This document shows positions 3,537 to 23,816 of a stretch of DNA of 64,000 bases, one piece after another. The position numbers and the translations under genes were made by a program. The notes beneath the pieces are model-generated. The model did not search any database, was not told the DNA's origin, and saw only the letters and a list, made by a program, of their open reading frames with translations. This DNA is from Nitrospira sp. Its GTDB lineage: Bacteria; Nitrospirota; Nitrospiria; Nitrospirales; Nitrospiraceae. The stretch's first letter is position 1, and every line of letters starts with the position of its first letter. The stretch covers positions 2,217,001 through 2,281,000 of the forward strand of contig CP054184.1 in NCBI GenBank assembly GCA_015709715.1. The letters are read 5' to 3'.

Positions 3537-4025
3537 TTACGGTCTCGAGAATGACGCCACGTCCTGCCGGCTCGTCGCCACCGGTCCCCGCTCGAAGAAC
3601 AGGCCGCGATTGATATCCCCGACGCTGACCATCCCGACCAAACGACCGCCCTCGACGACAGGGATACGGCGAAAATTTTTCAGGCCCATGTAAGAGGCCG
3701 CTTCCAGCACCGGCGCGTGGGGGGAGACGGTCAGGGGATTCAGACTCATGACGTCCTCCACGCGCTGCCGGAGCACATCTGCGTAGCCTTCTTCCATTTC
3801 CACGAAGTCGCGGCTGTGCACATTGTCATGGATGTACTCGCCGTAATTGGGATACAGCGGGAGCAATACGTCGCGCAACGTCACCATCCCGATCAACCGG
3901 TCACCGTCCTCCACCACTGGGACCGCGCCGCAATGACGACTCAACATTTTGATCACGACCGAACGAACGGTGTCATTCCGTCTGGCCGTCACCACGCCGG
4001 TCGACATGACATCTTGGACAACCAT
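3537..4025 (-). CDS. CBS-pair domain protein
   Basis: 162 residues made of two CBS motifs and little else (about residues 5-60: VQDVMSTGVVTARRNDTV...LIGMVTLRDVL; about 90-150: VEDVMSLNPLTVSPHAPV...LVGMVSVGDIN). Such stand-alone CBS pairs bind adenosine nucleotides or SAM and act as sensors or regulators. The frame is open much further upstream, but AAAGGAGG at 4032-4039 sits just before the ATG at 4025, and the domain begins immediately, so this start is used. The gene is divergent from a glycerophosphodiesterase gene with about 150 bases between them. No effector domain is fused, so the partner is unknown. Confidence 0.9.
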   Translation of the reverse strand: MVVQDVMSTGVVTARRNDTVRSVVIKMLSRHCGAVPVVEDGDRLIGMVTLRDVLLPLYPNYGEYIHDNVHSRDFVEMEEGYADVLRQRVEDVMSLNPLTVSPHAPVLEAASYMGLKNFRRIPVVEGGRLVGMVSVGDINRGLFFERGPVATSRQDVASFSRP

Positions 4026-4897: not shown

Positions 4898-4932
4898 ATA
4901 AAATGGAGCAAGAACGGCGGAGCTGAAAATGT

Positions 4933-4970
4933 CACGGGCGACCCTACACTGCGGTGGGAGGTCGCCCGTG
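4933..4970 (-). terminator. Hairpin at the 3' end of unit A
   Basis: A perfect 10-base stem (CACGGGCGAC with GTCGCCCGTG) around an 18-base loop. On the minus strand it is followed by ACATTTT, a weak U tract, so it is a plausible intrinsic terminator for unit A. The GDPD gene on the plus strand ends 36 bases before it, but no T run follows in that direction. Confidence 0.5.
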
Positions 4971-5207
4971 ATGGCGCTTAGGACGCCGATGCGTCGTTTA
5001 AATTATAGAACCGTGCGAGACCCGTTCAAGATGCGAGAGCGCTCAGTCTTCGTCGGGGGATAGATCAATCCCAGGAAGCCAGTGTACCTCGCATTCGGTC
5101 AAGATTCTTCGTGCTTGTGTGAGGTGGCTGTGATCCTGTCGATCGGACAGTGCCGTGAGGCACAGCCAGCTGAGAATCCACCGAACACGACCGACGAAAA
5201 CCTGCCG

Positions 5208-5252
5208 TCACCTCGGCGGGCCGCTGTGGTCCGGTGGCGTAAGTTCTTCCAT
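5208..5252 (-). CDS. 14-residue micro-ORF of unit A (MEELTPPDHSGPPR)
   Basis: The ATG at 5252 is preceded by GGGGAGG at 7 bases, a good ribosome site. The predicted peptide MEELTPPDHSGPPR is the same length as the peptide of unit B and shares TPP and GPPR at the same positions (8 of 14 identical), with one silent change in the PP codons. The TGA stop is overlapped by GTG (GTGA), opening a second frame of 48 codons to 5065 whose first residues VTAGF resemble VKAGF in unit B. No function is known. Either the peptide itself, or translation over this point as a regulatory event, could be what is selected. Confidence 0.5.
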   Translation of the reverse strand: MEELTPPDHSGPPR

Positions 5253-5353
5253 GATGAACCTCCCCGTTTGAGGTTGGCGAGGTGTCCCGAACAGGCGCGC
5301 ACTGCTGGTCGCCTCGTCACGGTTAACACGGCATCACGAAGTTTACAGTTCCC

Positions 5354-5382
5354 CTCTTACGCTTGTTAGAAAATCCTGTCAA
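5354..5382 (-). promoter_or_regulatory. Promoter of unit A
   Basis: TTGACA (5377-5382, read on the minus strand), 17-base spacer ending AACAAGCG, then TAAGAG as -10. Unit B has TTGACA at the same 17-base spacing with the spacer ending GAGAAGCG. The identical -35 and the shared AAGCG next to the -10 indicate a common promoter, probably housekeeping sigma with an extended element. Confidence 0.5.
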
Positions 5383-5419
5383 TACAAAAAATCAACCTTA
5401 GGTAATTTTCTCAAACAGC

Positions 5420-5447
5420 GCGGGCCCTCCCGTGAAGGAGGGCCCGC
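5420..5447 (-). terminator. Hairpin at the 3' end of unit B
   Basis: Perfect 11-base inverted repeat GCGGGCCCTCC / GGAGGGCCCGC with a 6-base loop. On the minus strand it is followed by GCTGTTTGAG, so the U tract is short. Very stable; plausible terminator or 3' protective stem separating unit B from the promoter of unit A. Confidence 0.55.
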
Positions 5448-5665
5448 GGATGGCGCTTGGGACGCCGTGGAAATCGTGGATCATGTTGCGGCCCGCATGG
5501 GACCCGTCGAGTCAGTCACAGGGGAGGGTGCCTCGTCAGGGGATCGCATCGCCGCCCTCTTTCTCCGGCCTGGAGTTCATGCAACAGCCAGCCGCACGCC
5601 TTTCACGTCCATGAGGACGCAACCCCGTGGAGAATCCGGCGATAGGCCCGACGAGAAACCCGCCT

Positions 5666-5710
5666 TCACCTCGGCGGGCCGTACGGGCCAGGTGGCGTGG
5701 TATCATTCAT
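5666..5710 (-). CDS. 14-residue micro-ORF of unit B (MNDTTPPGPYGPPR)
   Basis: The ATG at 5710 is preceded by GAGAGGAGGG, an excellent ribosome site with about 7 bases spacing. The predicted peptide MNDTTPPGPYGPPR matches the unit A peptide in length and in the TPP and GPPR motifs. The stop TGA is overlapped by GTG, opening a second frame of 30 codons to 5577 beginning VKAGF. In that second frame the changes relative to unit A at the Ala and Phe codons are silent (GCA/GCG, TTT/TTC), which hints at protein-level selection there too, though the number of positions is small. Confidence 0.5.
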   Translation of the reverse strand: MNDTTPPGPYGPPR

Positions 5711-5819
5711 CGTCCACCCTCCTCTCTGCGGTATAGATGCACGGGAGATCTAGACGGCAGCCGCGCGGTCTGTCCGGTCCCCCGCATAACGCAAGGCGGT
5801 ACATACGAGCCGCAGGACC

Positions 5820-5848
5820 TATCTACGCTTCTCGAAAAAATCTGTCAA
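5820..5848 (-). promoter_or_regulatory. Promoter of unit B
   Basis: TTGACA (5843-5848 on the minus strand), 17-base spacer containing an AT-rich run (ATTTTTT) and ending AAGCG, then TAGATA as -10. Same -35, spacing and AAGCG element as the promoter of unit A. Confidence 0.5.
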
Positions 5849-5896: not shown

Positions 5897-6431
5897 TCAC
5901 TCTCTTTCGCCTGACGGAGGCCGGGGCGGCGCGTCTTCGCCCGGCGATTGCATCACGGCGTCCAAGTCGATTCGCGTGAATCCGGGCAGTGGGGTAAACA
6001 GGCCGTCGTCCAACGGCTGCGCCTCGACCTTCGTCGCCTCCGATCGAGATTCCTCCCGCCCGGCGCTGTCCCGATCAATGGTTCGCAACGGAAACCCACC
6101 ATCCTTGACCAACTCGCGCAACCAGACCGGAGCCTCCGCCCTCGTGGAGGCATCGCCGGCGATGAGGGCAAAGAGAGCCGCATTGCCCAGGCCCTTCCCG
6201 ATGCAGAGTTCGCTGCTGCCCTCTTCGTCCTTCTCTTTGGCGAGGTAGATGTCGCACGGGTAGCCGGCGACCCGGTCGGTCCGCCCGGTCCTTGAGGTAG
6301 GTCTTTTGAACGGACACCTCGGTCCCTGCCACCTCCTTCATGGTAATCACACCTTCAAACGCTCCAGTCTGCGCCGAGAGGGGATCGTAGGCCCATAGAA
6401 ACAGGCCGCCCGCAAGCCACAGCTTCCACAT
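5897..6431 (-). pseudogene. Exported DUF4412-like protein, frameshifted
   Basis: The N-terminal frame (start 6431) gives a signal peptide (MWKLWLAGGLFLWAYDPLSAQT) and a DUF4412-type opening (FEGVITMKEVAGTEVSVQKTYLK). Near 6285-6295 coding continues in another minus-strand frame as VAGYPCDIYLAKEK, then LCIGKGLGNAALFAL, VWLRELVKDGGFPL and runs to the stop at 5897. The two halves join sensibly only if one base is changed in length around the run ACCGGGCGGACCGACCGGGT. Members of this group are small periplasmic proteins of unknown role with a beta-rich fold. Total length without the shift would be about 178 residues. This is either a true pseudogene or a sequencing indel. The family name is my best match, not a certainty. 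Confidence 0.6.
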
Positions 6432-23464: not shown

Positions 23465-23816
23465 TGGTGGAGGCGAGGGGAGTTGAACCCCTGTCCGAAG
23501 ATCGTCGGCACATCGCGTCTACATGTGTAGCCGATTCTTTAAGCTTCGCAGCGACCCACGCCTATCGGCCGGCTTAGAATCACCGCTAGCCCAGTATTGT
23601 CTCGCCCCATGCCGCTGAGCACTGGCGTGGGACCAGCCCGCTGCATCGCGCCGTTCCACCCCCGCGGGCCTCAGATGGAACGACGTCTCAGCCTAAATTA
23701 GGCTGCGAGTGCCAGTTCTTGATTGGCAGTTGCGTTTTTCCCGGAATTTTACGAGTTCCCGAGATCTCGACATGCGACGATGGCGTCAATATCCCCGTCG
23801 AAACCGGTCGCCCCCC
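23465..23816 (-). ncRNA. ssrA: Transfer-messenger RNA (tmRNA)
   Basis: About 352 nt. The 5' end GGGGGCGACCGGTTTCGACG and the 3' end with TTGAACCCC (T arm, written on the plus strand as GGGGAGTTGAACCCCTG) and terminal CCA are the tRNA-like part. The tag reading frame on the minus strand is GKNATANQELALAA followed by TAA, ending in the ALAA degradation signal recognised by ClpXP. The exact resume codon (GGG or a neighbouring one) is inferred. CCA is encoded. It rescues stalled ribosomes together with SmpB. A strong terminator follows. The short ORFs drawn over this stretch are not genes. Confidence 0.96.

Follow-up and report, generated by a model that had tools for sequence, protein, structure and literature searches.

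RNAIII and SgrS are stand-alone structured RNAs of several hundred nucleotides that carry a promoter, a terminator and a small open reading frame (ORF), and GOLLD, ROOL and OLE are long, highly structured RNAs with palindromic hairpin loops that could dimerize. In the leader peptide MgtL, the sequence EPDP near the start leads to ribosome drop-off, which is counteracted by EttA (PMC11282234). Early acidic residues can render synthesis EttA dependent, and early acidic residues alone are insufficient for destabilization in E. coli (PMC11282234). By its proposed function, the locus described here is best placed with the leader-peptide RNAs; no homology to a named leader was detected.

The locus lies in a stretch of 64,000 nucleotides of a Nitrospira sp. 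genome (contig CP054184.1), which is referred to as the window. The initial annotation had described two minus-strand units, each with a strong ribosome site, an ATG opening 14 codons, a conserved element, and a GC hairpin. When the window was read again and the units were re-extracted by coordinate, all of these parts were present in unit 1 (5848-5411) and unit 2 (5382-4925), each comprising a promoter, a ribosome site, a 14-codon ORF, hairpins, and a terminator, with the two ATGs 458 nt apart. We interpret the pair as two paralogous, Nitrospirales-specific leader RNAs in which a ribosome pausing on, or dropping off from, an acidic Pro-Pro start would switch the fold, a reading in which our belief and our doubt are evenly balanced. 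The window also contains a tmRNA gene (23465-23815, minus strand, Rfam RF00023).

All features of both units are located on the minus strand. The unit 1 promoter (5820-5848) consists of TTGACA (5848-5843), a 17-nt spacer, and TAGATA (5825-5820), and in 27 genomes the TTGACA and GCGTA of the promoter region were invariant or nearly so. With the transcription start inferred from the promoter position, a transcript of ~410 nt is predicted that extends from GCGGCTC to the terminator (5405-5815) and has a consensus fold. Its 5′ arm GCGGCYC (5807-5813) is predicted to form a closing helix with GGGCCGC (5494-5488); both arms are nearly invariant and hence provide little covariation evidence. Hairpin P2 (5741-5785) is a covarying helix with double changes in 5 pairs and the invariant palindromic loop ACCGCGCGG. 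It is followed by the Shine-Dalgarno (SD) sequence AGAGGAGGGTGG (5714-5727), whose GGTGG is able to pair with the CCACC of the Pro-Pro codons, leaving the AUG in the loop, and by the leader ORF MNDTTPPGPYGPPR (5666-5710 including the stop codon, ATG at 5710). The covarying post-ORF hairpin (GGCCCGCC...GGCGGG, 5659-5680) overlaps the stop codon. Further downstream, the 5′ arm TCTCGTCGG (5648-5656) of a long-range helix faces its partner CTGACGAG (5539-5532); pair 173-335 of this helix is doubly changed in 8 of 26 sequences, and unit 2 has an equivalent. A GGCGUCCYAAGCGCC hairpin (GGCGTCCCAAGCGCC, 5452-5466), which occurs in both units and in the whole family, is located just 5′ of the terminator (5405-5450), whose GC hairpin (5450-5411) has a covarying stem. 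The middle of unit 1 in the window (5640-5540) is strongly different in sequence and lacks ~30 nt found in most relatives.

Unit 2 has a conserved promoter (5354-5382) with TTGACA (5382-5377), a 17-nt spacer, and TAAGAG (5359-5354), and its predicted transcript of ~420 nt (4925-5350) is the conserved tandem partner, again with a consensus fold. The transcript contains hairpin P2 with the palindromic loop UGCGCGC (5276-5320), the SD sequence GGGGAGG, the leader ORF MEELTPPDHSGPPR (5208-5252 including the stop codon, ATG at 5252), a covarying post-ORF hairpin (5201-5222), and a long-range helix of TCGTCGG (5191-5197) with CCGACGA (5056-5050). These are followed by the hairpin of the GGCGUCCYAAGCGCC type GGCGUCCUAAGCGCC (unit 2 sequence GGCGTCCTAAGCGCC, 4973-4987; direct repeat D4) and by the terminator (4925-4970), whose GC hairpin (4970-4932) has the loop CCUCCCACC.

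The consensus folds include 17 doubly changed pairs in unit 1 and 12 in unit 2. Both folds have in common P2 with its palindromic loop, a predicted ribosome-site hairpin with the AUG in the loop, the post-ORF hairpin, the long-range helix between CUCGUCGG and CCGACGAG, a small UGCC-loop-GGCA hairpin, the GGCGUCCYAAGCGCC hairpin, and the terminator. The post-ORF hairpin was 94.3% paired and had a covariation score of 0.193, compared to at most 0.071 when it was slid. In several copies from another Nitrospirales family it is followed by a U-run; in the window there is no U-run at this hairpin, and the terminator follows ~250 nt further on. The palindromic P2 loops (5769-5761 and 5301-5295 in the window; CCGCGCGG and GCGCGC, with GGCC in copy L065) could form kissing dimers.

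When the 921-nt region was used as a DNA query, the units were matched in 26 of 28 relatives from the same genus. Eight other genera of the family were also searched, and four of them gave weaker matches. Across the genus, the tandem pair was kept with ~76% identity over stretches of ~460 nt and was flanked by a conserved hypothetical gene on one side and a GDPD gene on the other. The pair was absent from two same-genus genomes, one of which had retained a related leader of the universal stress protein (USP) type. In the window, the upstream hypothetical gene (5897-6431) seems to be frameshifted or shortened next to relatives with a longer open frame. With R1, a covariance model built on the 5′ domain of the unit-1 type, matches were obtained in 156 of 175 family genomes at E values up to 1 and mostly far below. 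The value was ~1e-39 for the own genome and, in relatives, 1e-20 to 1e-43 for the majority of the unit-1 type copies. These scores and the genus-wide retention of the tandem pair indicate that the likeness of the two units is not due to chance. The R1 matches often represented one unit-1-like and one unit-2-like locus per genome; outside the genus the two types were mostly dispersed, with tandem copies also present in one genome and, at a greater distance from each other, in another.

A second covariance model, covering the part from the ribosome site to the post-ORF hairpin (R2), detected further, weaker copies bearing the motif in additional Nitrospirales families. The initial annotation had named a covariance-model search of other Nitrospirota as a check, and the matches bear out its expectation. 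A weak match outside the order was without the motif, and two other matches look like chance matches within coding sequence; these three were discarded. When 84,980 species genomes were scanned for an SD sequence followed by M[ED]DLxPPD (GGAGG-N3-9-ATGGANGAYCTNANYCCNCCNGAY), 39 places were found, all of them in Nitrospirota, where ~0.1 were expected by chance according to our own arithmetic with equal base frequencies. In most of these 39 loci the GGCGUCCYAAGCGCC hairpin was found 246-277 nt from the AUG. Rfam covariance models matched neither unit at the gathering threshold, and a permissive search gave only chance-level hits (E values of 0.8-4), in accord with the initial annotation, to which no such family was known. 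The literature on Nitrospira small RNAs, leader peptides, and structured RNAs contained nothing relevant that we could find. Judged from these searches, the two units are members of an RNA family that has apparently not been described before and is confined to Nitrospira and its relatives.

The proteins encoded behind family members were assigned by Pfam to the Usp, CBS, AmoC, and ClpX zinc-finger families, and a small membrane protein with VYKKSQ at its end is encoded next in 17 of the 39 named loci. This protein of ~26 residues with the conserved end GGxVVYKKSQ was seen behind the element in many genomes, at nine loci and at named ones. The USP, CBS, AmoC, and small-membrane-protein leaders have a same-strand gene directly downstream. 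USP leaders lack the GGCG hairpin and the terminator module, which CBS leaders usually have. In the own genome, a third family member, a USP leader with the ORF MRDLTPPDHQHRPL (plus stop codon), is present outside the window (G000:C1:596354-596470), shortly 5′ of a universal stress protein gene. An earlier suggestion of a leader peptide controlling a small RNA comes closest to our reading, to which has to be added that related leaders precede protein genes in the own genome and in relatives. In the window, each unit closes with a strong terminator and has no same-strand gene directly behind it, so that neither has an obvious target in cis, unit 1 least of all. Beyond unit 2, the first gene on the same strand encodes a CBS-domain protein (3537-4025, minus strand, Pfam CBS, 8.6e-29) and is separated from the unit by the convergent GDPD gene; at seven loci of relatives, a unit-2 type element is located directly 5′ of the CBS homologue. 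At two other loci, decayed copies without Pro-Pro precede CBS genes. Three comammox loci have terminator-less leader copies directly 5′ of amoC, and a decayed copy, MAGLSPPDCSG, was seen near amoC at a fourth locus. A general link to amoC was ruled out, as R1 was clear in only 2 of 30 amoC loci.

The layout in the window bears on a dual-function or trans-acting small RNA of the RNAIII or SgrS kind, in which the 420-nt RNA would pair with other mRNAs and the octapeptide ORF would either be a further, partly independent output or serve the stability of the RNA. Both units have their own promoters and terminators, a same-strand gene behind unit 1 is often missing, and within the genus there is hardly any variation in the C-rich and palindromic loops (ACCGCGCGG, UGCGCGC, and the terminator loop CCUCCCACC). 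We consider this explanation possible but unlikely, since in many relatives leaders of the same family are only 100-300 nt away from downstream genes and those of the USP type do without the terminator module. A rather improbable reading would be that the ribosome held on an obligatory octapeptide is the ligand that switches a stand-alone 420-nt RNA, possibly dimeric through kissing palindromic loops, which would act on nitrifier stress and ammonia-oxidation genes, some copies working in cis and others in trans.

Selection on the leader ORF was analyzed by parsimony on a tree of 123 distinct homologous ORF regions. For codons 2-8, the changes at codon positions 1, 2, and 3 were 37, 45, and 105 (p 2e-10), and for codons 9-23 they were 234, 240, and 246 (p 0.86); these p-values are approximate, because the tree was derived from the same short region and changes were treated as independent. 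The dN/dS ratio of codons 2-8 was 0.36 in frame, and shifting the frame gave 2.85 and 1.22. The tree-based counts replaced a permuted-code test of amino acid entropy, which was weak (180 of 2000 random codes were as good). Protein-level selection is limited to codons 2-8 or 9, and beyond these codons the ORF is either molded by RNA folding or free of constraint; in unit 1 the selected part is MNDTTPPG (codons 1-8). The consensus is M-x-[D/E]-[L/T]-[T/S/N]-P-P-[D/G]-[H/Q]. Of 93 distinct sequences, 89 had D or E at codon 3 and all had Pro-Pro at codons 6-7, although the latter invariance arises in part by construction, as most copies were recognized by requiring Pro-Pro, which was not the case for other positions. 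In 9 of the 93 sequences the residue after Pro-Pro was neither D nor G.

The length of the ORF was variable. All over the genus, the unit 1 ORF has 14 codons, but that of unit 2 ends after the eight codons of MEELTPPD in 18 of 25 distinct sequences from the genus; in the rest of the family 23 codons are common, and lengths of 8, 9, 14, 15, 16, 23, and more (over 30) codons occur. L065 has a GTG start with the peptide retained, and two USP leaders have lost the hairpin and retained MxDLTPPDH. The stop after MEELTPPD, the GTG start, and these two leaders agree with a selection that is limited to the N-terminal codons. In two same-genus genomes, a third copy shows a +2 frameshift after codon 3 with the RNA parts intact. 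The initial annotation had assumed that parts of the units are selected, and the ORF under protein-level selection within a structured RNA bears this out. The conserved 14-residue peptide that it described is, as the unit of selection, ruled out by the unit 2 stops at codon 9 and by the codon-position test. Of the shared TPP and GPPR positions, the Pro-Pro codons belong to the selected part, whereas the GPPR codons form the 5′ arm GGCCCGCC of the covarying post-ORF hairpin.

The selection on codons 2-8 would also be expected if the peptide itself were the product, as a regulatory or secreted micropeptide. This is improbable, as the constraint covers only 8 or 9 residues of ORFs with 8 to over 30 codons, neither a signal nor a membrane segment is present, and the start region lies within a predicted hairpin. 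Secretion, which had been proposed, is unlikely for a peptide without a signal sequence whose conserved part is only an acidic, proline-containing octapeptide.

An SD/ORF helix of at least 5 bp was found in 93 of 107 homologues, with 67 expected after shuffling, and a matched change of SD and Pro codons from GGUGG/CCACC to GGGGG/CCCCC was observed. As the CCNCC of the Pro codons can thus also pair with the ribosome site, they were left out in a recount, in which the remaining codons of 2-8 still showed 37, 45, and 80 changes (p 6e-5, likewise approximate). Such pairing, which occurs in many copies, and the strong RNA covariation would suit a purely structural RNA whose ORF is a by-product of a hairpin hiding an SD-like sequence. 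We regard this as very improbable, because the third-position excess persists without the Pro codons, codon 3 is almost always D or E, and the SD of unit 2 in the genus pairs elsewhere, yet CCRCC is retained. A repetitive mobile element with no role for the host, to which 1 to 6 model matches per genome at various places might point, is barely credible given the same syntenic site by the GDPD gene across the genus, the low copy number, and the purifying selection.

For the preferred reading, a pair of ribosome-switched leader RNAs, we propose the following course. The start codon would lie in a hairpin loop, with the ribosome site paired in this hairpin, often with the Pro-Pro codons. Initiating ribosomes would meet acidic residues at positions 2-3 and Pro-Pro-Asp/Gly at positions 6-8, a context in which a pause of the EF-P type or an intrinsic destabilization of the ribosome, as on MgtL, would be expected. 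A ribosome held at codons 6-8 would cover the first part of the GGCCCGCC hairpin. If the ribosome dropped off, this hairpin and the downstream CUCGUCGG/CCGACGAG helix would be left as they are, and if it passed on, they would be melted. We infer that the ORF is translated and that pausing or drop-off on the acidic and Pro-Pro codons is converted into a change of fold, and thereby into termination or read-through toward a downstream gene. For related leaders, the targets would be genes for the universal stress protein, CBS-domain, tiny membrane, and AmoC or ClpX-type proteins, and the units in the window would have become terminated, largely stand-alone versions upstream of the GDPD and CBS genes. 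The octapeptide ORF within a folded RNA thus probably makes a pausing ribosome the switch for stress-type genes. The own genome encodes EF-P and EttA, which makes pausing or drop-off possible but is no test of it. Counting against the leader switch are the exceptions at the residue after Pro-Pro, the frameshifted third copies, the decayed copies before CBS genes, the lack of an obvious cis target, and the E. coli finding that early acidic residues do not suffice by themselves for destabilization.

If our reading is correct, bacteria responsible for nitrite oxidation and complete ammonia oxidation would possess an order-wide leader-peptide regulon, and the copy directly before amoC in some comammox genomes would link it to the key enzyme of ammonia oxidation. 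To our knowledge, few leader peptides are common to several unrelated genes over such an evolutionary distance. The conserved nascent peptide M-x-D-L-T-P-P-D can be tested directly for ribosome pausing.

The Nitrospira units resemble GOLLD, ROOL, and OLE in their length, their high degree of structure, and their palindromic hairpin loops, and differ from them in matching no Rfam family and in containing an SD sequence and a selected ORF. With RNAIII and SgrS they share the stand-alone arrangement with a conserved promoter, a terminator, and an ORF, whose translation is suggested by selection, but their constrained octapeptide is common to leaders of protein genes. Leaders with EF-P-dependent polyproline pausing and the his and trp attenuators likewise have a short leader ORF overlapping hairpins; unlike these, the Nitrospira ORF has no run of codons for a single amino acid, and no biosynthetic operons follow. 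The MgtL leader of mgtA in E. coli and Salmonella is unrelated in sequence and lineage, as the SD sequence with M[ED]DLxPPD occurred only in Nitrospirota among the 84,980 species. It precedes a gene for a Mg2+ transporter and not genes for Usp, CBS, AmoC, ClpX zinc-finger, or small membrane proteins, and it has a Rho site where the Nitrospira units have intrinsic hairpin terminators. What both have in common is a very short ORF with early acidic and proline codons (EPDP in MgtL, E-E/D-L-T-P-P-D in Nitrospira) within a structured 5′ RNA, and translation of this ORF, which decides on premature termination in the case of MgtL, would have the same role in the Nitrospira units.
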